Source of the DNA: Clostridia bacterium
Lineage (GTDB): Bacteria; Bacillota; Clostridia; Oscillospirales; CAG-272
Direction of reading: 5' to 3'
Length of the DNA stretch: 57,732 nt
Assembly (NCBI GenBank): GCA_017412675.1
Contig: JAFPWV010000230.1
Coordinates: 1 to 57,732 of the forward strand
How positions within the stretch are numbered: the stretch's first letter is position 1; each line of letters begins with the position of its first letter. This document shows positions 1,157-55,225 of this stretch, in pieces. Position numbers and translations under genes: made by a program. The notes beneath the pieces are model-generated. The model was not told the origin of the DNA. It did no database searches and saw only the letters and a list, made by a program, of their open reading frames with translations.

Positions 1157-2089
1157 TCAGTCGGCGAAGAGCGGGGTGGAGAGATAGCGGTCGCCGGTAT
1201 CGGGGAGGAGCGCGACGATGGTCTTGCCCGCGTTCTCGGGACGCTTCGCCAGCTCGATGGCTGCGTGAGCCGCCGCGCCGGAGGAGATGCCCACGAGCAC
1301 GCCTTCGCTCCTGCCGATGCGCTTCCCTGCCGCGAACGCGTCTTCGTTCGTGACCGGGATGATCTCGTCGTAGATCTTCGTGTTGAGGACTTCCGGGACA
1401 AAGCCCGCGCCGATGCCCTGGATCTTGTGCGGACCGGCGACACCCGTGGAGAGGACGGCGGAGGAGGCGGGTTCGACGGCGACGACCTTCACGTTCGGAT
1501 TTTGGGACTTCAGGTATTCGCCGATGCCCGTGATCGTGCCGCCCGTACCGACGCCCGCGACGAAGATGTCGACCTTGCCGTCGGTGTCCTCCCAGATCTC
1601 GGGACCGGTCGTCTCGCGGTGGATCCTCGGGTTGGCCGGATTGACGAACTGGCCGGGGATGAAGGCATTCGGGATCTCGCGGGCAAGCTCGTCGGCCTTT
1701 GCGATCGCGCCTTTCATGCCCTTCGCGCCCTCGGTGAGAACGAGCTCCGCGCCGTAAGCCTTCATGATCTGCCGGCGCTCGACGGACATGGTTTCGGGCA
1801 TGACGATGATGATGCGGTAGCCCTTGGCAGCCGCGACGGACGCGAGACCGATGCCGGTATTGCCGCTCGTCGGTTCGATGATGACGGAGCCGGGTTTTAG
1901 CTTGCCGGTCGCTTCAGCGTCGTCGATCATGGCCTTGGCGATGCGGTCCTTCACGGATCCGGCGGGATTGAAGTATTCGAGCTTGGCGAGGACCTTTGCC
2001 GGGAGGTTCTCTTCTTTTTCGATGTGCGTCAGCTCGAGGAGGGGCGTCTTTCCGATCAACTGATCGGCAGAGGTATATACGTTCGACAT
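1157..2089 (-). CDS. cysK: Cysteine synthase (O-acetylserine sulfhydrylase)
   Basis: The enzyme makes cysteine from O-acetylserine and sulfide with PLP in the cytoplasm. The 310-residue length is typical. The Schiff-base lysine is K47 in NPAGSVKDR, the substrate loop is EPTSGNTG and the PLP-phosphate loop is GTGGTITG. The start ATG follows the RBS AAGGAG closely. A strong promoter and an Rrf2-type palindrome lie just upstream, and the Rrf2 gene follows it, which suggests an autoregulated cysteine module. CysK and CysM cannot be fully separated by eye, but the sequence is CysK-like throughout. Confidence 0.95.
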
Positions 2090-2116
2090 GATGGTTCTCC
2101 TTGTTCGGATCTTTAA

Positions 2117-2211
2117 TACTACCTGTTCGGTAGGTTGGTGTGATTATAGCACACCACGATCCGTTTGTCAAGGGGTTTGCGAAAAATATTTTCCGATTTT
2201 TTCGGTAGGTT
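2117..2211 (-). promoter_or_regulatory. cysK promoter with Rrf2-type operator and a second half-site
   Basis: On the minus strand the -35 is TTGACA (2166-2171) and the -10 is TATAAT (2143-2148), with a 17-base spacer. The palindrome CTACC-N5-GGTAG (2119-2133) sits just after the -10, where a repressor would block initiation. The plus-strand 11-mer TTCGGTAGGTT occurs at 2126-2136 and again at 2201-2211, upstream of the -35. Assigning these sites to the adjacent Rrf2 protein is inference. Confidence 0.75.
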
Positions 2212-2235
2212 TTCGGAGGACCGCATCGGGGCATG

Positions 2236-2263
2236 AAAAAGGGACCGCGCTGGCAGTCCCTTT
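2236..2263 (-). terminator. Intrinsic terminator of the alpha-mannosidase gene
   Basis: On the minus strand AAGGGAC pairs with GTCCCTT across about 12 bases and is followed by a T run. It lies 12 bases past the GH38 stop codon. Confidence 0.75.
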
Positions 2264-2274
2264 CTTGCTGGGTA

Positions 2275-5073
2275 TTACCGGATCTTCACGGTCGCCATGG
2301 CAAACGGCGCGAGGGGTACAGTGACCTTGCGGCCGTCGATACCGCAGGTTCCGATCTCGTGGCGCTCCGTGATGTCGACGATCGCCGCCTGCTCCGGCGC
2401 TTTCACGAGGTCGGAGAGGATGAGTGCGGCGCTTGTGCCTTCTCCGCCGTAGTCCGCGATGCGCACGATCAGGCCGCCGTCCTCACCGTTCTTCACGCCG
2501 GAGACCATCACGCCCTGCCCTGCCTCGAGCGAGAGAAAGGCGCCTTCGGTCGGGAGCGTGCCTCCGTGCTTCGTCGCGGCGTTGAAGGCGATCGGGTGGA
2601 CGTAGAGCGTCGCGAGCTTCTTCTGCTCTTCCTCCGCACAGACGCCGACGCCGAGGTTGAAGTGGTGGATGCCGCGCTCCGGGTACGGATCGGGATCGAC
2701 GGAGGACCGGATGAGCGTCACCGCGCCGGAATTCTCATGGCCGCGGAAGCCGTACTTCGTGTCCGTGACGATGAACGCCGCACCCCCGTCCTTCTCGAGC
2801 CGCATGAAGCTGTTGCCCGGAACGTCGTGGGCGATGTCGCCGCGGGTGATTTTGCCCATCGGGATGTCGTAGGTATAGTCCTTCACGGCGTAGGCGACGG
2901 GCAGATGGAAACCCAGCTGCGGGGTGTTGTCGCCCGGAACGCCGATCTCGTGCCAGTCGACGTCCGCGTGGAAGTTCAGAATCTTCGACTCGCCGAGCAG
3001 CTCGACCGTGACGGTCAGCTTCGAGGAGGCGAATTTGACTTCATAGCGGAGACGGCGGCGCAGACCGGTCACGCCGTAATCGAGGAGGCGGATGTCGCGG
3101 CCCGGCTGATTCAGGACGTCGACGCTCATGTATTCGCCGACCCGCCATGCGGTCATGCCGTGGCGCGGGTTCTCGCGGATGAAGCGGAAGACGGCGGACG
3201 GCTTCTCCGGAGTGACGATGTGCTCGCCGGTCGCTTTGTCGGTGAGCTCGGTCATGGCGAAGGACATCGGATCGAAGACCGCCCTGATCTGCCCGTTTTC
3301 GAGCACGAACGGGCTGTCGGTGATGTAGTCGCACCATGCGCCGGAATCCGTGGATGCGGGAACGCCCTCGGCGTCTTTGAGCTTCAGCACGATCGTGGTC
3401 CAGCCGAACGCCGGGATCTTTGCATGGACGAGGAATTTCGTAAAGCTGTGTCCCCAGTAGCCGTGTCCGGCCGCGAGGACTTCGGAAGCGACGGGATTGC
3501 CCGCGGTATCGGTGAAGTGCGCGAGGGAGAGGTCGTAGTTGTAATCCCAGACGGTCACCTCGGTCACCTCGTCGCGGTCGTAGCGCGTGGGATTGAAGAG
3601 GTGCAGCGCGCGGACGGAGCCTCTGCCGCGTTCGGTCTGCGGGAAACGGTAGCCCGCGCCGTGCTCGACGGCAAATCCGACGCCGCCGCCCTCGGAACGG
3701 GTGAAGTTGTTGTCGTCGAACGGGATCGCGGAGGTGTCGATCGAGTCGGCGATATTTCTCAGCGAGGCGTTGGCGGAAATGTCGATGCCTGCCAGCGCGT
3801 CCTGGAAGTGGCCGAGCGCGTATTCGCGGGTCTCGGTGATGCCGGAGCCCGGGAGGATGTCGTGGAAGTGGTTGAAGAGGATCTGCCGCCAGGACTTCTC
3901 GAAGATCGACGTGCGGGTGGGCGCGCCGGTCAGGGCAGTCGCCGCGGCGGAATAGGTCTCGGCTTCGTAGACGCGGTCCTCGGCGATGCGGTTGGCCATC
4001 TTGATGCGCGTCTGGGTCGTGTAGCAGCCGGTGAAGACGTAGTTGAGCTCGTGGTCGATGAGGGGCAGCTTGTCGCGGATCTTCTCGCAGGCGGCGAAGA
4101 ACTTCGCGTAGGTGCCGAATTCGATCGTCGGATAGAGCGGGAAGGTCGCGTCGTCAAGGATGCGCTCGACGTCGTTGCGGGTCGGTCCGCCGCCGTGGTC
4201 GCCGACGCCGTAGACCTTCAGATAGGTGTCCGTGCCGATGTTCGCGCAGTAAAGCGGCATGTTCTCGAAGGTGCGGATGTCGATGTCGCTGTTGTATGCC
4301 TTCGTGTCGTGGATGACGAGCAGCTCCTTGCCGGATTTCGCGCGCCAGCGGTAAAGCTCCGGCTGATCGTCGTTCGCGCGCATGTGGTAGTAATAATCGA
4401 TGCCGCCGTTCTGGCAGATCTCGGGGACGTTGATGTTGTGGCCGAAGGTGTCCGGCTCGAAATCGATGCGGATGGAATCGGGGTCGATGTCGAGCAGGTT
4501 CCCGAGATAGCGCTTGGTGTAGAGGATATGGCGGGAGAGCGATTCGCCGTTCGGCATGTTCTTGTCGGTCTCGGTCCACGTCGACGCGGAAACCTCCCAG
4601 CGTCCCTCATGGACGTATTTCCTGATCTCGTCGAGCATCTCTGGCGCGAAGTCCTCGACGATCTTGTAGGTCGACGCCTGTGACTGCGCGAAGGTGAAGG
4701 ACGGGTACTCCTTCATGAGATCGAGCATGGTGCGGAAGGTGTCGACCGTGACGGAGGCCGTCTCGTGATAGCCCCACATCCAGTTCATGTCGATGTGCGC
4801 ATGGGCGATGCAGTAGATCTTCAGGGATTTCGCCGCCGGGGAGAGATCGGCGAGGGAGTTCTCCACCGCCTCTGCCGTCGAGCGGGAGATGGTGTGCTCG
4901 TCGGCAAGGGCAGCAAGCAGATCGTCGCACGCCGCTTCGAGCCGTGCGTCATAGATGTGCCCTCGCGTCTGAGACAGGCACGCCATGTAGCAGAGCTCGG
5001 CGTAGATGCGGTGCGCCCAGTAATTCGTCGCGCACACGCCGCGGATCCGTCTGAGTTTATCGCTGAAAGTCAT
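2275..5073 (-). CDS. GH38 alpha-mannosidase
   Basis: The 932-residue protein hydrolyses alpha-mannosides, as family GH38 does with a zinc ion and a catalytic aspartate. The zinc-binding start of the catalytic domain is HAHIDMNWMWG (near residue 91). The motif RIDFEPDTFGHN (near 205) contains the nucleophile aspartate. GTPQL/HLP-type beta-sandwich sequence fills the C-terminal half. No signal peptide is seen, so the enzyme is probably cytoplasmic and acts on imported mannosides. The RBS AAGGAG is 7-8 bases before the ATG. A TTGACT-N17-TATAAT promoter lies upstream and the gene is transcribed alone. Confidence 0.93.
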   Translation of the reverse strand: MTFSDKLRRIRGVCATNYWAHRIYAELCYMACLSQTRGHIYDARLEAACDDLLAALADEHTISRSTAEAVENSLADLSPAAKSLKIYCIAHAHIDMNWMWGYHETASVTVDTFRTMLDLMKEYPSFTFAQSQASTYKIVEDFAPEMLDEIRKYVHEGRWEVSASTWTETDKNMPNGESLSRHILYTKRYLGNLLDIDPDSIRIDFEPDTFGHNINVPEICQNGGIDYYYHMRANDDQPELYRWRAKSGKELLVIHDTKAYNSDIDIRTFENMPLYCANIGTDTYLKVYGVGDHGGGPTRNDVERILDDATFPLYPTIEFGTYAKFFAACEKIRDKLPLIDHELNYVFTGCYTTQTRIKMANRIAEDRVYEAETYSAAATALTGAPTRTSIFEKSWRQILFNHFHDILPGSGITETREYALGHFQDALAGIDISANASLRNIADSIDTSAIPFDDNNFTRSEGGGVGFAVEHGAGYRFPQTERGRGSVRALHLFNPTRYDRDEVTEVTVWDYNYDLSLAHFTDTAGNPVASEVLAAGHGYWGHSFTKFLVHAKIPAFGWTTIVLKLKDAEGVPASTDSGAWCDYITDSPFVLENGQIRAVFDPMSFAMTELTDKATGEHIVTPEKPSAVFRFIRENPRHGMTAWRVGEYMSVDVLNQPGRDIRLLDYGVTGLRRRLRYEVKFASSKLTVTVELLGESKILNFHADVDWHEIGVPGDNTPQLGFHLPVAYAVKDYTYDIPMGKITRGDIAHDVPGNSFMRLEKDGGAAFIVTDTKYGFRGHENSGAVTLIRSSVDPDPYPERGIHHFNLGVGVCAEEEQKKLATLYVHPIAFNAATKHGGTLPTEGAFLSLEAGQGVMVSGVKNGEDGGLIVRIADYGGEGTSAALILSDLVKAPEQAAIVDITERHEIGTCGIDGRKVTVPLAPFAMATVKIR

Positions 5074-34923: not shown

Positions 34924-35165
34924 CAAAAAACAGACGCTCCGCATGGACGCCGGACGTCTGTCTTCACGAGGGCGATCACCGCCCTTCGGAAAAACCTGTA
35001 TCAGCAGCGCTCCACGGTTGTGACAGGCCGCACCGTCTTCCGGTACGGTCCAAGGAAAGCCGGATCCTTCCCTTTCGGCGGATCAGCCCCCCGTCTGCCG
35101 CGTCCTTTCCGAAGGGACATTCCCCGGCAGCCGATCATCCTCACCGCGCCTCTGCTTTGGTTACG
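34924..35165 (-). promoter_or_regulatory. Lysine riboswitch (L-box) with intrinsic terminator
   Basis: On the minus strand the elements appear in L-box order. AGAGGCGCG opens the aptamer (about 35148-35155). CCGAAAGGGAAGG, CTTGGACCGTACCGG and CCTGTCACAACCGTGGAGCGCTGCTG follow and match its conserved core and closing strand. Downstream, ACAGACG/CGTCTGT with a long T run (34924-34962) is the expression-platform terminator. The gap between promoter and gene is about 280 bases and holds nothing else. I recognised it by eye, so a covariance search should confirm it. Confidence 0.88.
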
Positions 35166-43648: not shown

Positions 43649-43721
43649 AGGGGCATAGCTCAGTTGGTAGAGCAGCGGTCTCCAAAACCGCGTGTCCTGG
43701 GTTCGAGTCCTAGTACCCCTG
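43649..43721 (+). tRNA. tRNA-Trp (anticodon CCA)
   Basis: The acceptor stem AGGGGCA/TACCCCT has a C-A mismatch at the sixth pair. The D arm is GCTC/GAGC, the anticodon stem GCGGT/ACCGC has loop CTCCAAA giving CCA, and the T arm is CTGGG-TTCGAGT-CCTAG. The discriminator is G and CCA is not encoded. An accessory region begins right after it. Confidence 0.93.
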
Positions 43722-45218: not shown

Positions 45219-46292
45219 TCAACCTTCGGTTGAATGCAGGATCGCCTGAAATTCCGGTGTGTCCCGGATGGGGTCGAAGCACCGGCATTCGAGCCACGAT
45301 CCGAGATTTTCGGTACTTCGACTGACACCGTAATACTGAAAGTCATGCGTGTCGATTTCGATCCGGTCGAAGAGCGGCGCGGTGTAGCGGTACGTTCCGG
45401 GATGATCGACAAAGATGTCGTCATGCAGAAGGCCGTATTCCTTCGCAGCCTTCAAGTCTTCCAGAGCGGCCTCATACCGGCCTGTCTGAGCCTCCCGGAG
45501 CGCGTGATAAACCTTTTCCAAATAAAGCAAGTCGTATGCGTCGAGAAAGTTCCCGTCTGGGATGAGCAGCCGGACGATGGTTTCCGCGGCTTCACAGGCT
45601 TCGATCCTGACAGAATCCGGCGTGTCTTCGACAAGCCGCATCAGCAGAGTCCACATGGCTTTCCATAATCGTTTCTGCCCGTGCTGGACCTGTTCCTCGC
45701 CCGTCATGGTCAGGCCGAGGAAATTATCGCGCGTGTCTCCTTCCGGCAGAAGCTCCGCATATTTCCGCGCTTCCTCCCGCCGACCGAGATCCGCGAGAGC
45801 ATAAACAGCGTCCCAGATGACGCGCTGTTTCAGCTTTTCGTCGTCCGTGTTTTCGAGAACGGTATCGGCGAATCGAACGATGTCTTCGTCCATCGCAAAC
45901 CGCTTTTCGTCCGGTTCCGACACAGACAGTAACTGGACGCAGTCCGCATGCCATGTGAGATAGCGCATGTCGCCGGGGAATTCCCGGACGGCCGCCTCCG
46001 CGTTCCGGGCATAAACGTCAAGCTCGTCGTCGTGAAAGCGAGCCATTGCCTCGTCAAAAAACGCCTTCCGTTCATCGCTCTCCTCCTCCGTCAGCCCGAG
46101 AAGCTCGTCCGACGTGACGCCGAGGAGCTTCGTCAGCGGCCCGATCAGCCCGAGGTCCGGGGAGGTCAGATTGCACTCCCATTTCGAGACTGCCTGATAG
46201 GACACGCCGAGGAAATCCGCCAGCTTTTCCTGCGTCAGGTCGCGCTTCTTCCGCAGATCGCGGATGCGCTCGCCGATCGTGGTTGTTTTCAT
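45219..46292 (-). CDS. XRE family regulator with helical C-terminal domain (paralogue 2)
   Basis: The 357-residue protein has the HTH IRDLRKKRDLTQEKLADFLGVSYQAVSKWECN and then about 300 residues of helical sequence with LLIPDGNFLDAYDLLYLEK and, at the end, CFDPIRDTPEFQAILHS. ATG 46292 has AGGAGA 7 bases upstream. The HTH region is nearly identical to paralogue 1 while the rest has diverged, so the pair arose by tandem duplication and their sensor parts changed faster than their DNA-binding parts. Confidence 0.85.
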   Translation of the reverse strand: MKTTTIGERIRDLRKKRDLTQEKLADFLGVSYQAVSKWECNLTSPDLGLIGPLTKLLGVTSDELLGLTEEESDERKAFFDEAMARFHDDELDVYARNAEAAVREFPGDMRYLTWHADCVQLLSVSEPDEKRFAMDEDIVRFADTVLENTDDEKLKQRVIWDAVYALADLGRREEARKYAELLPEGDTRDNFLGLTMTGEEQVQHGQKRLWKAMWTLLMRLVEDTPDSVRIEACEAAETIVRLLIPDGNFLDAYDLLYLEKVYHALREAQTGRYEAALEDLKAAKEYGLLHDDIFVDHPGTYRYTAPLFDRIEIDTHDFQYYGVSRSTENLGSWLECRCFDPIRDTPEFQAILHSTEG

Positions 46293-46525: not shown

Positions 46526-46567
46526 TTATTTGCACAGGTCTTTGATTTTCTGTCCGATTTCGGTCAT
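46526..46567 (-). pseudogene. Truncated N-terminus of a fourth clustered XRE gene
   Basis: The 13-codon frame encodes MTEIGQKIKDLCK and a stop. It matches the start of XRE paralogue 3 (HIGQRIKDLRK). Its ATG overlaps the paralogue 3 stop as ATGA and has the RBS AAGGAGG, so it was once a translationally coupled gene. Its body is replaced by the integrase fragment; AGCCGACCTG at the joint occurs in both parent sequences. Confidence 0.6.
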
Positions 46568-47694
46568 ACGGTTTCCTCCTTTTCGCTGACTGCTTGGCTT
46601 TCCAGCTCCGCGATGAGTGCTTCGAAGTCCTCCCGTTCGCGGAGGGGAGCGTAGATCGGAGCCGATTTCAGAAAATCCGCTCTTTCTTTCCGCCAGTTCC
46701 GGTCCACGAGAAGTACCGCGTCTTCCCGGTCGATCAAATCCCCCGCGCCTTCGCCCCAGCTATCGAGAACAGGCGCTGTGTAGGGAAGATACCGCCCGGG
46801 GTCTTCCGCCGCCGCACGGACGATCCGGTACCACTGTTCATCGTATTCGACCTGATCCCGCAGCTTCTCTACGGCGCGTCCGTATTCGCCCGCTTCGATG
46901 AGAAGACGCGCCTGATTTACCGCGCTCACCGAAAGATCCCGCGCGTATCCGACGTAGTTGCCATCCTTGACAATCGCCTTGACGACTGCCTCCGCCGCCT
47001 CGTAGGATGGGAGATGATGCTCGCGGTCTCCGCGCATGTCCAGGTAATTGCGCAGCCAGTTCAGCGACTTGTAAACCAGAAACTGCTGCTCATTCTGCCA
47101 GTCTTCACCGTCGAGACATGCAAGTAGATTTTCATCTCTGAACGGACCGGACTGCTCTGCGAAGATTTTCGCCTCTTCGCGCAGGCCGTCTTTCATCCGT
47201 ATTTGGAAGAGCTGGGATGCCGCATAGGTTTTCCATGTTTCGTTTTTTCCGTCGGCAAGGATCGCGAGCAGGCGTTTTTCGGCGTCCTCTTTCCGCCTGC
47301 GTTCTTCCTCGCTTTCTCCTGTCATTCCGCCGAGCTTCCAGTATTCCGCCTCCGCGATCCTGTAGGAGATCTGTTCGTTCCGCGGGTATTTCTGCGCGGC
47401 GAGCGTGACGATCTCCCCGAACCGTTCAAAGTCGTCCGGTTCAAGTCTCGTCAGTTCCCTGCTCAGTTCTTCCGCCCCTTCTTCGTCTTCTGTCAGGTCG
47501 ATCCCGAGCAGTTCGTCCGCCGAGCACCCGAGCACCCGGCAGAGCGAGGCGATGAGCGCAAGATCGGGCGACGCCGAACCGACCTCCCATTTCGAGACCG
47601 CCTGCGGGGATACGCCGAGATAATCCGCCAGCCGATCCTGCGTCAGATCGGCTTTCTTGCGCAGGTCTTTTATCCTTTGTCCGATGTGTTCCAT
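46564..47694 (-). CDS. XRE family regulator with helical C-terminal domain (paralogue 3)
   Basis: The 376-residue protein has the HTH IKDLRKKADLTQDRLADYLGVSPQAVSKWEVG (residues 8-39) and SADELLGIDLTEDEEG as the hinge. The helical C-terminal domain has IVKDGNYVGYARDL in place of IPDGN, and it ends YAPLREREDFEALIAELES. It is the most divergent of the three. Its promoter is TTGCGC (47782-47787), TATAAT (47759-47764), spacer 17, with a TCTGGT/ACCAGA palindrome over the -10. Its stop overlaps the truncated XRE start. Confidence 0.85.
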   Translation of the reverse strand: MEHIGQRIKDLRKKADLTQDRLADYLGVSPQAVSKWEVGSASPDLALIASLCRVLGCSADELLGIDLTEDEEGAEELSRELTRLEPDDFERFGEIVTLAAQKYPRNEQISYRIAEAEYWKLGGMTGESEEERRRKEDAEKRLLAILADGKNETWKTYAASQLFQIRMKDGLREEAKIFAEQSGPFRDENLLACLDGEDWQNEQQFLVYKSLNWLRNYLDMRGDREHHLPSYEAAEAVVKAIVKDGNYVGYARDLSVSAVNQARLLIEAGEYGRAVEKLRDQVEYDEQWYRIVRAAAEDPGRYLPYTAPVLDSWGEGAGDLIDREDAVLLVDRNWRKERADFLKSAPIYAPLREREDFEALIAELESQAVSEKEETV

Positions 47695-47866: not shown

Positions 47867-49084
47867 TCAGAACGCGAACCCATCCGTGATCCCGACGAGG
47901 CGGGTGTTGTCCCTTTTGACATAGTACATCTCGGTGATCTCCGACGTGCTGTGCCCGAGCAGGTCGGCTACCTGTTTCGGAGAGAGGCAGAGGAGCGAAC
48001 CGTCTGGCTGCTTCACACCGTTGACCAACCGCGAGGCGAACGTATGCCGGAAGCTGTGGAGCCCCTTCTGCTCGATCCCGGCGTTCTTCAGAATCTTGTA
48101 GTATCGCTTGCGGAAGTTGACCGGTCGGGTGTAGACGCCGTTCTGATCGCACACGAGCGGGGTGTCCTCGCCGAAGTAGAACTCCCTGCGCAGATCCTTG
48201 ATCGCTTCGATGGCGGTGTCGTTGAGGGGGACGTCACGCTTGCTCGTCGCGCTTTTGAGCTTGCCGACCTTGACCTCGCGCCCGCTGTCGATCTCCGCGC
48301 CGTCGCGGCGGTAGACTTCTTTCACACCGCGCTGGACGTGGATCACGCGGTTGTCCAGATCGACGTCGCTGTTCAGGAGACCGAGGAGTTCGCCTGTGCG
48401 CAGTCCGGTGTTGAGCAGGAGCGTGAACGCGCTTGCCTGCATGTACTTCTGTTCGCCGTTGCCGTACAGCGTGAACGCTTCCGCCTTGAACTTGTCCAGC
48501 TCCTCATCCGTGAAGACCGTGACGGTCTCACAGGTGGGGAGATTTTCTTTGTCCTGTGCCGCGAGGAAGTTCGCCTTCTTCATCATCGGCGCGGCGGTCA
48601 TGGGGTTGCGTCTGATCAGCTCCCGCTCCGTCAGGCTTTTGTAGTATTCGTTCAGGAGATTGTGGACCTTTTTGACCGTGGTGTACGCGTAGCCGTCGTT
48701 CATCATTTGATTGAGCAGACTCTTGATATCCGCCGCTGTGATGTCTTCGACGAGCTTGGCGCCGAGGGCAGGGTAGATCTGATTCCACGCCGTACACTCA
48801 TACCGGTCATAGGTCGTGCGCTCGATGCTCGGCATCTTGAAGACCTCGAGCCACCGCTGCATGCTCTTTTGGAGCGGGCATCTGAGTTCGTCGCTCTGGA
48901 TTTGATCGTCGTAGAAGTGTTCGGTGTATTCCTTCATCTTCTTCTCGACGTCCTTTTTGCTGACGCCGGAGAATGCACTGCGCTTCCTCTCACCGGCTTC
49001 GTCGAGGTACCACACCGTCCCGTGCCAGCGTCCGTCGTTGCATTTCGACGCCGTGCCGTTTGTCAGCAGTTTTTTCTGTGCCAT
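47867..49084 (-). CDS. Tyrosine-type integrase/recombinase
   Basis: The 405-residue protein has an N-terminal arm-binding domain (DGRWHGTVWYLDEAGERKR), a SAM-like core-binding domain (residues 75-165), and the catalytic domain. Catalytic residues are R in NTGLRTGELLG, K in ATSKRDVPL, H and R in HSFRHTFAS, H in LGHSTSEITEMY, and Tyr387. It is intact and should insert and excise the element. It reads towards the XRE cluster, and its 3' end lies next to a TCAACC-N3-GGTT palindrome that may belong to the attachment site. Confidence 0.95.
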   Translation of the reverse strand: MAQKKLLTNGTASKCNDGRWHGTVWYLDEAGERKRSAFSGVSKKDVEKKMKEYTEHFYDDQIQSDELRCPLQKSMQRWLEVFKMPSIERTTYDRYECTAWNQIYPALGAKLVEDITAADIKSLLNQMMNDGYAYTTVKKVHNLLNEYYKSLTERELIRRNPMTAAPMMKKANFLAAQDKENLPTCETVTVFTDEELDKFKAEAFTLYGNGEQKYMQASAFTLLLNTGLRTGELLGLLNSDVDLDNRVIHVQRGVKEVYRRDGAEIDSGREVKVGKLKSATSKRDVPLNDTAIEAIKDLRREFYFGEDTPLVCDQNGVYTRPVNFRKRYYKILKNAGIEQKGLHSFRHTFASRLVNGVKQPDGSLLCLSPKQVADLLGHSTSEITEMYYVKRDNTRLVGITDGFAF

Positions 49085-49235: not shown

Positions 49236-50342
49236 TCACATCGTCAGATTGACCGCGTGATCCTTCGCCCACTGCTCGCGGAGCAGTTTGGAATCGACCG
49301 GGACGCGTACCATCTGCTGTTTGTTCGGAACGCTGTCGCAGAGCATCTGACCGATGTTGACGAGAAGATTACCGACCTCGCGCCCGACGGACGCATACGA
49401 ATTCTGCACCTCCGACTCCGACATACCGGCTTGACTCGCCGTGCGTACCACCATGTTGCGGATGGATTTGAACTCCCGGTTCTCTTCCAGTGGAACCTTC
49501 TCCGGCATGGCGTCGGTGTACAGCCTGACCGTGGCGCACTTGTATTCGTACCACTTGTCATACAGTTCCGCGATCTCCGGGGTCTCTGCGATCATCTTCA
49601 CAATTTCGTTGACCGTCTTTTTCGTCTCGGAGTTAAGGTATCCGTACACCTTTTTACCCTTGTGCTGACGCAGTTCCTTCCGCAGCTGCTGAAACATATA
49701 GACCAAGAGATTCTTATCATTCATCGACCATGCGGTGCTCATCAGAGATTCCATTTGCGCATGGAACGTATCCTTGAGCTCGTCGCGCACGACTGTCTGC
49801 TCGCGGTACACGCTGATCATGTCCTGACGGAAAATGTCCTGCGCCATGAACCGCTTGATGTTTTCGATCCCGCGCTTCGAGAGATATGCCTCCGTCGGGT
49901 TTCGGGACCACACCATCATGTGGACATGCGGATGCGTCGGGTGCTGATGGTACGCGGCGTACCATCTCAGGTTCGCCGGATCGATCCTCATCTCCCGCGC
50001 GATGTCGTTTCGATGGGAGCGTAGGAGGTTCATCCACTCGACCGCGCGGTTGTACCCGAGGCGTTCCGCGTCCTCGCGTGTCAGGGAGAAGATGTGACAC
50101 CACACGTTTCCGGGGTGCTCGTCCACCTCCTTCATGATCGCCGCCATGTTGATCGTCTCGCCCTCGTCCGTGAACATCCCGTTCGATCCATTCCGGTCTT
50201 TGATGTAGCCGGCCATGCCGGAACGGAGGACCTCCACGCCCTCGCGCGTTGCGATGTAGTTCGCCAGACCGCCGCGCGTACCGCCTTTCTTGGTTTTGCT
50301 CCCCGGTTTGTAGTACGGGGATTTCAGAATCAGTCCCGCCAT
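49236..50342 (-). CDS. MobP-type relaxase
   Basis: The 368-residue protein nicks oriT and leads the single strand during mobilisation. RGGLANYIATREGVE (near residue 25) and the histidine cluster YHQHPTHPHVHMMVW (near 140) match the HUH relaxases of the MobP/MobL group of Bacillota elements. The C-terminal half is helical. ATG 50342 overlaps the preceding stop (TGATG), so it is coupled to the small ribbon-helix-helix gene. No conjugation (type IV secretion) genes are in the window, so transfer would need a helper. Confidence 0.9.
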   Translation of the reverse strand: MAGLILKSPYYKPGSKTKKGGTRGGLANYIATREGVEVLRSGMAGYIKDRNGSNGMFTDEGETINMAAIMKEVDEHPGNVWCHIFSLTREDAERLGYNRAVEWMNLLRSHRNDIAREMRIDPANLRWYAAYHQHPTHPHVHMMVWSRNPTEAYLSKRGIENIKRFMAQDIFRQDMISVYREQTVVRDELKDTFHAQMESLMSTAWSMNDKNLLVYMFQQLRKELRQHKGKKVYGYLNSETKKTVNEIVKMIAETPEIAELYDKWYEYKCATVRLYTDAMPEKVPLEENREFKSIRNMVVRTASQAGMSESEVQNSYASVGREVGNLLVNIGQMLCDSVPNKQQMVRVPVDSKLLREQWAKDHAVNLTM

Positions 50343-50755
50343 CACTCATCCTCCTCATCGTAGTTGAAGTCACGCAGGTCGAGCGTACCGTTCCATCCCC
50401 GCGCATCATCCTCTGCCGTGTCGTATAGCTTTTCGAGCTCATCCGGCGTCCAGTTATACGCTGTCGCCAACACATGCGTCAACGCGTTCTGCTGCACCGC
50501 CATCTTGTAGAGCACCCGCGCGATCCGGTTTTCGGAATCCCTGACCTTCGCGCCGATGACGGATTCGAGTGCGGGCGTCAGGAACTTCTGCGTGTGATTC
50601 ATCTCACACCACTCTGTGTAGAATTCAATCGCGTTGCGGATGTACTCGTTGCGCGATTCGAGTCCGAGCTTCCGTGTCATCTCGTCGCACTTTGCCCACA
50701 TTTCAGCGGACATCCGAACCCCGTTCGAGGGCATCGATTGTTTTTGCTTTGCCAT
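50342..50755 (-). CDS. Relaxosome accessory protein (MobC-like, ribbon-helix-helix)
   Basis: The 137-residue protein has an N-terminal ribbon-helix-helix segment (SNGVRMSAEMWAKCDEMTRKLGLESRNEYIRNAIEFY, residues 9-45) and a helical middle (SENRIARVLYKMAVQQNALTHVL). An acidic tail follows (FNYDEEDE). Placed directly before the relaxase and after a candidate oriT, it probably binds oriT and helps the relaxase. ATG 50755 is used with AAAGGATGG upstream. Confidence 0.8.
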   Translation of the reverse strand: MAKQKQSMPSNGVRMSAEMWAKCDEMTRKLGLESRNEYIRNAIEFYTEWCEMNHTQKFLTPALESVIGAKVRDSENRIARVLYKMAVQQNALTHVLATAYNWTPDELEKLYDTAEDDARGWNGTLDLRDFNYDEEDE

Positions 50756-51106
50756 TGATACCATCCTTTCCATCTTGTATGATCCCGGCATGTGCCCGTG
50801 ACCACAAATTGAGCTCATGCCGGAATCTCTGCCTGAATTTGCCTGAAAATCTGCCGGAAATAGCCGTGAGACTCCGGGTTTCGACCCTGAACGCTCTCGC
50901 TGAATGCCCGGAACCCCTTCAACGTAGCCTATCCTCCCGGTCGGCGTTGCCGTCCGATGTGGGCTGGCGGGGCCGAGAGACCCGGCTTTATCCTGCTCCG
51001 CTATCGTTCGGCCCCGGCACCCCCTCAAAACCCCTGTAAAATGGCGATTCTTCGTGAGGGCAAAAACGCCTCTGAGGACGGAAAGTCCCCATCCGAAAAT
51101 CGGACT
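50756..51106. other. Gene-free stretch between mobC-like and rep-like genes
   Basis: About 350 bases without a convincing gene. It contains the candidate oriT arms and the leader of the MobC-like gene. Confidence 0.5.
50968..51016. other. Candidate oriT inverted repeat
   Basis: CGGGGCCGA (50968-50976) and TCGGCCCCG (51008-51016) are perfect 9-bp inverted arms with a 31-base spacer. They lie in the gene-free stretch 50756-51106 upstream of the mob genes, where an oriT is expected. I cannot point to a nick site. Confidence 0.4.
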
Positions 51107-51517
51107 TCATGTCGCCTCCTTTCGCGGATGCTTCCGATCGTACTCCTGCAGACGGCGTTCCGCATCGGCTTTCTGAAGCTCCCTCTGGAACTGAGCGTCG
51201 ATCACATCTTGGATCGGCAGGATGCGGAAGAGCAGATTGCCGTTGCGTTTCTTGCCATCCTTCGACGTGAAGAACGTCGGTTCGGTTTCGATCAGACCCT
51301 TGCGCTCGAGCAGGGAGACATACTTCCCGACCGTGTTCCGGCTCATGTCGACAGCGGAACCGATCGTGTCGTAGCTCGGGTAGCAGGTGTACTTTTCTCT
51401 GTCCTCGCATCGGATCAGGAACGCATACACCAGGATTTCACCGCCTGTCAGACCGAGATCGAAGATTTCATTCGGCAGGACGAACTGACGGTGAAGACGT
51501 TTTTGTGTTTCGTTCAA
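51107..51517 (-). CDS. Replication-initiator-like winged-helix protein
   Basis: The 136-residue protein starts with TTG (RBS GGAGGTG). It contains a RepA_N/HTH-type winged helix (FDLGLTGGEILVYAFLIRCEDRE, YPSYDTIGSAVDMSRNTVGKYVSLLERKGLI). A charged helical tail follows. Such small helix-turn-helix proteins are encoded next to replication or mobilisation genes of plasmids and integrative elements. It lies downstream of repeat-rich DNA that could be an origin. Initiator or regulator cannot be decided by eye. Confidence 0.75.
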   Translation of the reverse strand: MNETQKRLHRQFVLPNEIFDLGLTGGEILVYAFLIRCEDREKYTCYPSYDTIGSAVDMSRNTVGKYVSLLERKGLIETEPTFFTSKDGKKRNGNLLFRILPIQDVIDAQFQRELQKADAERRLQEYDRKHPRKEAT

Positions 51518-51962: not shown

Positions 51963-54014
51963 TCAGGACAACGATTCTGACGAGTCTGTAACACTGTTCG
52001 ACCCGTCCGGAGGGGAGACGCCGAGAATTTCTTCCACCTTCTCACGGCTCAGGATCATCACCGTTTTGGTTTCTCTCCCGAACCGTTTCGAATCCGTGTT
52101 CCTTCCGCTCGCGTGAGGAATGAGGATGCCCTCGTCCCGCAGCTGTTTCGCCAGAGACTGCGGAGCCGATACCCGTCCCTCGCCGCTCTGATCGCAGAAC
52201 CGGTTGACCTCCATGACGGACCGTTCGAGAAAGATGTAGTACGCGTCGTCGTCCAGGTATCCGATGTGGTTGTTCGGATGGCCCGTTGTGAGATCGCTCT
52301 TTTTCGTCAGGCACAGCATCCCGCTGTTGATCATTCCGAAGAGATTGCGGATGTAAACGCTCGTGGGTTTGTCATCCTCCTGCATCGACACCTGCTTCCG
52401 CGCGAAATCGAGGAAGATCGGAGCGAACTTTTCCTTTTCCGCTTCTCCTTCTTCTTGGGTCATGATCCCTTTCTCCACAAGGAATTTGACCATCACATGG
52501 AATCCGAGAAGCAGATCCGCGATTGCTTCCGTCAGCCGACCGTGCGGACGCATCCCGAGCGCATTCAGCTTCGTCTGCCATTCGTCGCGCGTGCTCTCGA
52601 TGACCCTGCGGAAGAGATCCGCAGTCTCCGCAGTCCGTTCGTCGCTGAACATGAACCGATCTATGATCCACGTCACATACGAATGCAGTCCTCTGCACAG
52701 AGAACCGTTCTTGGCGATCCTCTGCGCGACCGTCAGCGCCGCTCTGTTGATCGTGTCCGCATCCATCTCCACGCAGAATAGACGCGCCTGACTGCTCTCG
52801 CTGATACCCGGAATGAATTCCGCCGTGACGATCACGTTCCCCTGCGGCGGCACACTCTTTCTCTGTTTGATCTCCGACGTCAGCCTCCCTCTGTCGATCC
52901 GGTCGCCGTATCCGCGGATGACGGTTTCCAGAACTTCCGTCATGCTTTTCAGTTCGCCGCTCTTCCGCGGATGGAAATCGTCCACGCAGGTCAGCACATC
53001 CTTGAGCCGTCCCGCGTTGTAGAGAACGCTGTTCGGGGTATCCTTGAAGCTCATCGGCAGGTTTCTGAGATTGAACTTCCCGAAGAAGGAAAGGAACAAC
53101 GCAGCGAGCGAACTCTTCCGCGCTCCTGTTTTTCCGACGAGCGTGAAGACGAATCCCGGTTCCATCCCCGCCTCTCTCAGCAGTTCGTTCAGCGGCGTGA
53201 GGAACACCAGAGCCATCAGGGAATAGATGATCCTGTCCGGTGCGATGCCGATCCGGAGCAGATTGAGGATCTCGTACAGATCCGCGTCCGTACATCCTTC
53301 CTCCATGAGATACCCGCCTCCTTTCTTGCTCCCCTCCAGTTCCACGTCGTAGAGCGGATGACCGGGAAGGAGGTACTGAACTTTTCCGTCGATCTTTTTG
53401 AATCCGGTATAGGTGTAGATGTGCTTCTGCTCTGCCTGCGGTCCGGTGGATCGGACGGCGACGGCGATGTGTTTTTCCACCGATCCTACGGCGGTGTACT
53501 GACAGACGCTCGGCAGTTCCATGATCCACTTCTTGTCCTCCAGATCCGACGCATGCACATCCGTACAGCAGATCTCGCTTCCATCCCGCGCGAGGATTCC
53601 GATACGGAACATGCGGTCCTCCCTGATGCCGTCGTCGCATACGATCTCCGCCTTGACCCGCGGGAAGAAATTACAGAGTCGGACGACCTGTTCAACCTTT
53701 CCGTTGGTCTTGTGCACATACAGCCAGCCGCTCCCGATCTCGTATTCGTCCGGGTAATCGGGAAGCCGGTTCTGTTCCGTCCCGACCGAAATGGGATCCC
53801 GCTCTGCCTCACTGATGACAGCTTCCCCCACGTCGGAGTTATACACCCTGTTCAGCGACGCGACGAGCTCTGCGTCGGACATCTCCTCCGGCAGACTTTT
53901 GTTCTCCACGACCGGTTCGACGGTGTGGTGCTTGCCGAGATGGAAGTGCTCCTTCACTTCGGCCCACGTAATATTCCGTTTGGGAAATACGATTGCGTTT
54001 TCTTGATTTGTCAT
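51963..54014 (-). CDS. DUF927-like P-loop ATPase (helicase/primase-associated)
   Basis: The 683-residue protein has an unclassified N-terminal part (1-240) and then a DUF927-like ATPase core. Walker A is LVGKTGARKSSLAALFL (near 335) and Walker B-like is LTCVDDFHP. QGNVIVTAEFIPGISESSQARLF is a sensor-like strand. The C-terminal region (NHIGYLDDDAYYIFLERSVMEVN) may be a small winged helix. Such proteins are common in mobile elements and act in DNA replication as helicase-like motors. ATG 54014 has AAGGAG upstream; an earlier ATG in frame has none. Confidence 0.82.
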   Translation of the reverse strand: MTNQENAIVFPKRNITWAEVKEHFHLGKHHTVEPVVENKSLPEEMSDAELVASLNRVYNSDVGEAVISEAERDPISVGTEQNRLPDYPDEYEIGSGWLYVHKTNGKVEQVVRLCNFFPRVKAEIVCDDGIREDRMFRIGILARDGSEICCTDVHASDLEDKKWIMELPSVCQYTAVGSVEKHIAVAVRSTGPQAEQKHIYTYTGFKKIDGKVQYLLPGHPLYDVELEGSKKGGGYLMEEGCTDADLYEILNLLRIGIAPDRIIYSLMALVFLTPLNELLREAGMEPGFVFTLVGKTGARKSSLAALFLSFFGKFNLRNLPMSFKDTPNSVLYNAGRLKDVLTCVDDFHPRKSGELKSMTEVLETVIRGYGDRIDRGRLTSEIKQRKSVPPQGNVIVTAEFIPGISESSQARLFCVEMDADTINRAALTVAQRIAKNGSLCRGLHSYVTWIIDRFMFSDERTAETADLFRRVIESTRDEWQTKLNALGMRPHGRLTEAIADLLLGFHVMVKFLVEKGIMTQEEGEAEKEKFAPIFLDFARKQVSMQEDDKPTSVYIRNLFGMINSGMLCLTKKSDLTTGHPNNHIGYLDDDAYYIFLERSVMEVNRFCDQSGEGRVSAPQSLAKQLRDEGILIPHASGRNTDSKRFGRETKTVMILSREKVEEILGVSPPDGSNSVTDSSESLS

Positions 54015-54542
54015 ACTGACTCCTTTCCGACCTTGCGGTCTTGTCTCATGTTTCGATTTGCGTACCGTTTGTTCTCTGCGACCATAGTCATCACCTTCCT
54101 CTCCGCCGCAGGGCTTGATCTGTATTTTGGATTTTGCAAAACTGATTTGACGGGAACTGTCATTTCCCGACACCGAAAAAGAAAACGGCTCCCGCTTTCG
54201 TAATCGAAAAAGTGGGAGCAGTATCTATATTCGAGATTCGGTTTTGAGAGAACCCTATGACGGGATCCCACGACATCTTGTCCCTCCGACCGTATTGTGG
54301 AAGATTTTTCGGATTTCCCAAAAAAGTGCCGAAGATTTATTTTCCCGTCCGAAGGTTTTTCTGATGGTATCCCTCATATATACCCCGACAGAAGGAACGC
54401 GGAATATTCCATCGGCGGAAAACTTTTTTCGTCGGCATAGAAAAAACTTCCTCTGTCGCAGAATGACATGGAAGCCTTTCGAGTGATTTATGGCTCAACC
54501 GAATCCCCGCTTTACATATGTTCCCTGAGAAAGACGCACTTC
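54015..54542. other. Gene-free leader region upstream of the DUF927-like gene
   Basis: On the minus strand GCTCCCACTTT pairs with AAAGCGGGAGC (54188-54219) and is followed by CGTTTTCTTTTT, a probable terminator about 175 bases before the ATPase gene. The rest is AT-rich compared with the chromosome and holds no convincing gene. Confidence 0.5.
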
Positions 54543-55194
54543 CGCCTTGGCGATGATTGCGTTAGGTATAACGATCCCTTAGTGAAGATCGTTTTGGTTA
54601 TAGCTCTCCCTTGTCCGGATCGTGACTGGATACAGCTCGCCTGTCGCGGAATCCTTTGCTTTCCGTCAGAAGGCAAGACTTCACCCTTGGCGATGATCGG
54701 AGTAGGTACAGCTATCCCTTGGCGTAGTCCCATCTGGATACAGCTATCCCGTTGTAGAAGTTGTCTTTCAAAAAACTCTTTCAGCCTCAGTTGTTTTTGT
54801 GAAGGCCAATTGTATGTTTGTATGTTGCACGCACAGTTTCCCACAACCGAAAACCGGCTTCGGACATAGTCCTCCCCCGCACGGTCTTACTGTGCTTGCC
54901 AGAACCATATGTAACCACAACAGACGGACAGTTGCTGGCTGTCTCCATGGGCGTCTCACCCCTTGCCGGGTACTCCGGCGGCTGCGTACAGAAGTATCAT
55001 TATCCCTCACTGATTGTCATCGCGCTCCGTTGGTCGCAATCCCACGGTCGGGGTCTCGCGCCGAACTCTTCGGTTCGGTCTTGTCGCCCAGTCGCTCACA
55101 GTCTCCTGCGTCAGTGGGAACGTATCTGTTGTTGGGTATTCGGTTTTCAATGAGCAAAAAAGATGCTCTCCCCGGTTCTAATGAGAGAGCATCG
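54188..55194 (-). ncRNA. Candidate long noncoding RNA of the mobile element
   Basis: A perfect promoter (55197-55225) would start a leftward transcript near 55190, and the next clear terminator without an intervening gene is at 54188-54219, so about 1.0 kb is transcribed. No frame in it has recognisable protein features. It contains hairpins such as CCGAAC/GTTCGG, the 32-bp repeats at 54543-54766, and TTACATATGGTTC (near 54900), which can pair with GAACATATGTAA (near 54514) with one bulge. A family is not recognised. Confidence 0.35.
54543..54766. repeat. Degenerate 32-bp tandem repeats
   Basis: Five units of exactly 32 bases start with (C/G)CCTT and end like TACAGCTAT. They occur as one run of three units (from 54543) and one run of two units (from 54694), separated by diverged sequence. 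The unit ends (CCCTTGGCG and GGNTACAGCTAT) are conserved and the centre of 10-13 bases varies. The period is about three helical turns, as for protein-bound iterons. Confidence 0.65.
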
Positions 55195-55225
55195 TAATTA
55201 TACCACATCCGAAATCTCTTGTCAA
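55154..55225 (-). promoter_or_regulatory. Strong promoter followed at once by a terminator-like hairpin
   Basis: On the minus strand the -35 is TTGACA (55220-55225) and the -10 is TATAAT (55197-55202), with a 17-base spacer. The predicted transcript begins with GATGCTCTC, which pairs with GAGAGCATC and is followed by six Ts (55154-55194). This would give an RNA of about 40 bases, or act as an attenuator for the longer transcript. Confidence 0.7.

Follow-up and report, generated by a model that had tools for sequence, protein, structure and literature searches.

The region of about 1 kb that separates a perfect promoter from a leftward operon in the window (the whole 57,732-nt stretch of DNA analyzed) is likely to be an integrative mobilizable element's leader, working as a processive antiterminator of the canT/pemK type. 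The leader contains the pemK RNA motif (RF02913), an upstream boxA of the rRNA type and a covarying, long-range helix that encloses the motif, and the same arrangement is found in the canT region of a Tn916-type element. Together, these features favor a leader that mediates antitermination in cis over a free-standing giant RNA.

Organization of the element

As the window is a whole contig, one of 242 in the genome, the distal end of the element was not located. On the minus strand, the perfect promoter is followed by ∼1 kb without a conserved protein, an intrinsic terminator and then the genes, all reading leftward. The gene nearest the terminator encodes a 683-residue protein (51963–54014) with a Walker-A-like stretch, GKTGARKS, recognized by eye. 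It is presumed to be the replication protein, and has no Pfam match at an E-value of 0.001 and no PDB match. It is followed by an HTH_36 protein (51107–51517; PF13730), a 140-residue protein adjoining the relaxase (50342–50764), which is MobC-like by position only and gave no match in the Pfam scan, a MobL relaxase (49236–50345; PF18555, 5.4e-31) and a tyrosine integrase (47867–49084; PF00589), all on the minus strand.

An adjacent pair of HTH_3 proteins of 356 and 376 residues (45219–46289 and 46564–47694, minus strand), on the left side of the element, are possible repressors. A tRNA gene at 43649–43721 (plus strand), about 4 kb past the integrase, is a candidate integration site. A lysine riboswitch (RF00168, 59.6 bits) is present at 34997–35162 on the minus strand.

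The pemK RNA motif and its genomic context

An Rfam covariance search, proposed as a check with the original prediction, was run with Rfam 15 and identified pemK RNA (RF02913) at 54945–55003 on the minus strand, with a score of 51.1 bits (cutoff, 34.8). This is the sole Rfam match between 53900 and 55500, both at the gathering cutoff and at E-values up to 1. The region had been described as not assignable to any known family, a statement that the RF02913 match supersedes. It had also been likened to GOLLD, ROOL and ARRPOF or to plasmid replication-control RNAs, and no such family was matched in this interval at E-values up to 1; we take the GOLLD, ROOL and ARRPOF models to be included in the library searched. 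The broader expectation, a structured noncoding transcript in a mobilizable element, held in the form of an apparently noncoding leader. The segment AUAAUGAUACUUC, conserved in RF02913 according to per-position counts over 88 loci, is present at 55003–54991, and the segment AUAAUGAUAC also lies inside the leader (within 55190–54917, minus strand).

RF02913 reportedly stems from a 2017 survey. Among the genomes sampled, it turned up in 48 of 147 from the order and 26 of 398 from the phylum; the 14 control genomes gave no match. In the accessible text of two papers, it is one of the families from which covarying pairs are missing (PMC11701678, PMC7657543); wherever the papers checked name the family, it serves solely as a test case or covariation example in the accessible text.

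For comparison of locus anatomy, we assembled 64 loci, namely 60 of 78 RF02913 places, three loci from the genus of the window and the window itself; 17 weaker places and one other (G021:C3) were left out. A sense open reading frame of at least 100 residues begins within 300 nt of the RF02913 end at 43 of these 64 loci. Among 82 downstream proteins scanned (from 104 open reading frames at 58 loci, with at most two per locus), 23 are resolvases, 19 PemK, 11 ParA and 8 tyrosine or phage integrases. These are the proteins of mobile elements generally, and therefore no gene-specific sensor is implied. For example, RF02913 precedes ParA and ParB genes on a Monoglobus plasmid (70.2 bits) and, by eye, a PemK-like frame at a locus from the genus of the window (L090, 71.6 bits). 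The operon of the window is rep-mob-int, and not pemK as in the name of the family. An insert in the pemK region (GAGCGT..GTCGCA) occurs at 18 of the 64 loci (e.g. L129, L139, L149 and L155) and is absent from the window.

Promoter and boxA

The TTGACA-N17-TATAAT promoter (55197–55225, minus strand) matches at 12 of 12 positions, with an A-rich tract upstream, and is the only perfect one among four promoter-like sites between 53900 and 55500; in this respect, the original prediction was correct. It is similar to rRNA/tRNA-type promoters of its own genus, and the region around it has matches among the upstream regions of further genomes in that genus. Six such contig ends were read, of which four end shortly after the boxA, one ends before it and one has two tRNA genes; the term "rRNA-like" for these promoters is a deduction, since 16S is absent from those contigs.

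A hairpin (GATGCTCTC..GAGAGCATC) followed by T6, read from the sequence, lies between the start site and boxA (55155–55190, minus strand). It was considered as a terminator before boxA and rejected because the T run is missing in L086 and L087. At other loci (L117, L138, L144, L156, L164, L167 and L192), an intrinsic terminator directly upstream of boxA was recognized by eye, e.g. CCCCCTCAC..GTGAGGGGG plus a T run. In some of them, the 3′ arm of this possible attenuator or insulator could, by eye, also pair with a C-rich stretch just 5′ of boxA.

The boxA-like element of the window, TGCTCATTGAAAACCGAATA (55137–55156, minus strand), is of the rRNA type, as judged by comparison with rRNA leaders. 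We looked for 16S in seven RF02913-bearing genomes and found it in four, with a total of 10 operons. In seven of these operons, a promoter and hairpin precede TTGAAAA, flanked as in, for example, TTCCTTGAAAATTGAACA, and the remaining three carry the variant CTTGCAAATT. The order of promoter, hairpin and boxA is thus common to the rRNA operon leaders and the window, and the boxA wording is similar. However, the rRNA leader continues into 16S, whereas the boxA of the window precedes a domain closed by helix P1. BoxA is bound by NusB-S10, and we infer that the boxA of the window leader would be bound likewise and would recruit Nus factors.

Elements resembling TTGAAAACTGAATA are found upstream of RF02913 elsewhere, mostly 120–280 nt away. 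Two of the 64 loci lack upstream sequence, and among the remaining 62, boxA scores of at least 12 of 14 occur at 38, compared to none of 320 control windows of equal size; boxA is weak (score of 9 or less) at 10 loci. In a further set, which consists of 28 of the 41 places from a second RF02913 survey, 17 of 28 loci reach at least 11 of 14, compared to 5 of 165 controls, and 11 score 10 or less. Both sets contain some near-duplicates. The association is not built in, since loci were picked by RF02913 alone, which does not include boxA.

Structure and covariation of the RNA domain

The Rfam model of RF02913 spans 61 nt, whereas the window has a domain of ∼240 nt (boxA, P1, P2 and P9) and a tail of ∼700 nt. 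According to the comparison of the 62 and 28 loci, RF02913 makes up only the 3′ part of this domain, which consists of boxA, P1, P2, the pemK stems and P9. The Rfam match, boxA, P1, P2 and the rRNA-like arrangement of the leader did not figure in the original prediction. P1 is a long-range helix that pairs an arm right after boxA (ACAACAGAT, 55124–55132) with a segment beyond the pemK stems (GTCTGTTGT, 54917–54925). P2 is formed by TTCCCACTGA (55111–55120) and TCAGTGAGGG (55004–55013), and hairpin P9 (54927–54943) shows double changes at five of five pairs in relatives; all of these are on the minus strand. P1, P2, P5 and P9 are outside RF02913.

Matched P1 arms have a mean score of 20.4 compared to 14.1 for mismatched partners, and matched P2 arms a mean of 18.6 compared to 13.1, in 56 loci, in some of which boxA was wrongly placed; only 23 (P1) and 18 (P2) of these 56 loci are above the 99th percentile of shuffled arms. 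The covariation analysis on homologues that had been suggested with the original prediction was carried out on 23 short (280 nt or less), non-redundant sequences from 60 loci with boxA and P1. The covariation score is 0.603, compared to 0.215 for shuffles (0 of 500) and at most 0.178 when slid, although the slid control favors the structure, since pairing on 18 of the rows was used to set the registers of P1, P2 and P5. Paired cells account for 83.5%, compared to 59.7% in shuffles, and 34 of the 38 pairs of the structure show double changes. Eighteen of the 23 sequences were aligned first and used for drawing (0.584 versus 0.207 for shuffles; P1 register off by one in 4 of 18 rows); five more divergent ones were added to the count later, and the result held. 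Before P5 was re-set, the alignment (A2) scored 0.500. Alignment and folding of 57 loci (one of them empty) did not yield any long-range helix.

The leader tail and terminator

Module B (54512–54914, minus strand) contains degenerate 32-nt repeats at approximately 54770–54520, and L088, which has no RF02913, shares part of it. Of all lags, 32 scores highest in the window (0.426, reached by 0 of 400 shuffles) and likewise in L089, L087 and L088 (0, 1 and 2 of 400 shuffles, respectively); Tandem Repeats Finder gave no row for a 32-nt repeat at a score of at least 30. Thus, the period that had been predicted is real. The "variable centers" attributed to the repeats stand only in part, as the center is also fairly conserved in homologues, by eye. 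The predicted long-range pairing of TTACATATGGTTCT with GGGAACATATGTAA is plausible: its score is reached by 20 of 200 shuffles in the window, by 0 of 200 at the corresponding position in L089 and, in an ungapped search, by 129 of 200 in L087. Module B is possibly closed by this pairing, of 54914–54901 with 54525–54512.

Module C (54281–54451, minus strand) is 88% identical in L086 and L091 and 84% identical in L024, and L092 has a short part of it. L091, L092 and L024, which carry this module, gave no RF02913 match; L024 has, by eye, its own promoter and boxA-like start ahead of it. A second boxA-like copy, suggested by a direct repeat (55152–55111 versus 54249–54211), was rejected, since boxA is not kept there in L086, L091 and L092.

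An intrinsic terminator (54176–54219, minus strand), with a hairpin at 54219–54188 and a U-rich tail, lies between the leader and the operon. The terminator predicted at 54188 is present at seven of seven loci compared (the window, L086, L087, L089, L091, L092 and L024; −11.8 to −18.8 kcal/mol), of which L086 and L089 have identical sequences at this site. Open reading frames within the leader are at most 110 residues in the sense direction and 133 residues on the opposite strand. Similarity among four homologous leaders is visible in all six frames and is therefore at the DNA level. A protein in the tail was rejected, as no frame stands out, in agreement with the original view that no protein is evident.

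Relationship to Tn916 canT

Plasmid pCF10, which we take to carry a Tn916-type element (Tn925), has RF02913 (L206, 2017–2117, 55.0 bits) between an orf8-like gene and the excisionase gene. Its gene order is that of Tn916, with sigma-70-like, HTH, excisionase and integrase genes plus an antisense 83-codon open reading frame. The gap between orf8 and xis also contains a boxA at 1859 and, by eye, the P1 arms AGTAATCGAAT and GTTCGATTGCT. We assign the pCF10 frames as orf7, orf8 and orf5, the last from the antisense 83-codon frame, as for orf5 in PMC11658703. RF02913 is also ahead of the excisionase gene in two more Tn916-type loci (57.8 and 39.8 bits), and is present in all three of the Tn916-type records opened, out of 39. 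Another RNA, RF03532 (SQ2397, 229.8 bits), is located upstream of regulator genes in the pCF10 element (L206, 568–797).

According to the accessible text of PMC11658703, canT is an experimentally shown antiterminator between orf8 and xis of Tn916; a 452-bp fragment is active in cis and orientation-specific, and the authors consider that it acts most likely as RNA, with structure predictions that are hard to interpret. The same text reports that canT(S3), with ATA changed at nt 283 after orf8, loses activity both within the 452-nt fragment and within the element; the canT(Δ162) deletion of nt 229–390 is inactive as well (PMC11658703). In pCF10, nt 283–285 are ATA and correspond to L206 2017–2019 and to positions 1–3 of RF02913, although ATA occurs 13 times in the 460-nt gap of this plasmid. 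The Δ162 deletion corresponds to L206 1963–2124 and covers the whole of RF02913. Based on the presence of RF02913, boxA and P1 in the canT region and on the positions of S3 and Δ162, we take RF02913 as the canT-type core.

The active 452-bp fragment begins at nt 126 after orf8, inside boxA, and keeps TTGAAAACTGAATA without TGTTCT. Thus, the full boxA is not needed in that reporter, where boxA may be dispensable. A 400-bp fragment is also active, with little or no effect of S3, and a 291-nt fragment is inactive, even though it holds the sequences altered in S3 or removed in Δ162 (PMC11658703, accessible text). The core is, therefore, neither sufficient nor needed in every construct; in the intact Tn916 element, the pemK core matters.

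RF02913, boxA and P1 are arranged and oriented alike in the canT region of the pCF10 element and in the window. However, canT is located before xis-int and after sigma-like and HTH genes, whereas the window leader precedes rep-mob-int. Furthermore, no rRNA-like promoter was seen, by eye, adjacent to canT, and its sequence differs from that of the window outside the core. The terms pemK, Rfam, boxA and NusB do not occur in the main text of PMC11658703, in its accessible form. RNA-based processive antitermination at operon heads is described for conAn (pLS20), put (HK022) and EAR (eps) in the accessible part of PMC8955417. Identity with conAn2 was rejected, since RF02913 has no match in positions 1–50000 of the 65774 of pLS20 at E-values up to 1; the best boxA score in the presumed conAn stretch (pLS20 1960–3480) is 10, the same as in other windows.

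Alternative explanations

The length of ∼1 kb, the structure, the strong promoter and the conserved terminator would also be expected of a free-standing large structured RNA of the GOLLD/ROOL kind, stopping at the 54188 terminator and functioning in trans; a terminator right behind the leader would suit a discrete noncoding RNA equally. We consider this improbable, given that no such Rfam family matched, that RF02913 is leader-like, with sense frames close behind it at most loci, and that canT acts in cis (PMC11658703, accessible text). Alternatively, boxA might, as in rRNA operons, do no more than shield the long untranslated leader from Rho, with the pemK domain as a regulatory sensor and no antiterminator. 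Rfam does file RF02913 as Cis-reg, and boxA and promoter resemble rRNA leaders, but the diversity of the downstream genes and the behavior of canT alleles make this unlikely: those without the core or with an altered one no longer antiterminate, either in the element or in the 452-nt reporter, though S3 retains activity in the 400-bp reporter (PMC11658703, accessible text).

An origin of replication or a transfer site is a more serious contender for modules B and C, which could be DNA iterons located upstream of rep and spaced by about three helical turns, with the transcript incidental. The 32-bp period, the position ahead of rep, the 84–88% identity of module C and the occurrence of both modules without RF02913 favor this proposal, which leaves the covarying RNA domain unexplained; we regard it as a real possibility, somewhat short of probable. 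A DNA role for these modules is as likely as an RNA role. The proposal is also compatible with the antiterminator reading, and both can be true together.

Proposed mechanism and implications

In the antiterminator model, the strong rRNA-like promoter would start the leftward transcript, the first ∼270 nt of which would contain boxA and form a multi-branched RNA closed by P1, with the pemK core inside. Acting in cis, this RNA would render the polymerase that transcribed it termination-resistant. The modified polymerase would then cross the long untranslated leader and the terminator at 54219–54176 and transcribe rep, HTH, mobC-like, mobL and int, while stray transcription that enters without the leader RNA would stop at the terminator. 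Antitermination by the window copy itself would follow by analogy with canT.

The RF02913 family and canT are each already known. The identity of RF02913 with canT, the boxA and P1 architecture and the composite leader were not found in the openly accessible literature searched. On a wider reading, for which we judge the case evenly balanced, RF02913 would be the core of a very widespread family of processive, RNA-based antiterminators in Bacillota mobile elements. A copy of the rRNA leader (boxA and, in the window, also the promoter) would capture the antitermination machinery of the host for rRNA, the RNA domain would lock the polymerase in a terminator-resistant state, and only transcription started by the element would cross the insulating terminators.

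Thus, a function is proposed for RF02913 that is tied to the published genetics of Tn916, and canT gains a structure supported by covariation. If this is true, elements with serine recombinases, tyrosine integrases, ParA or rep-mob modules would have their transcription controlled in one common way, perhaps linked to the rRNA machinery of the host.
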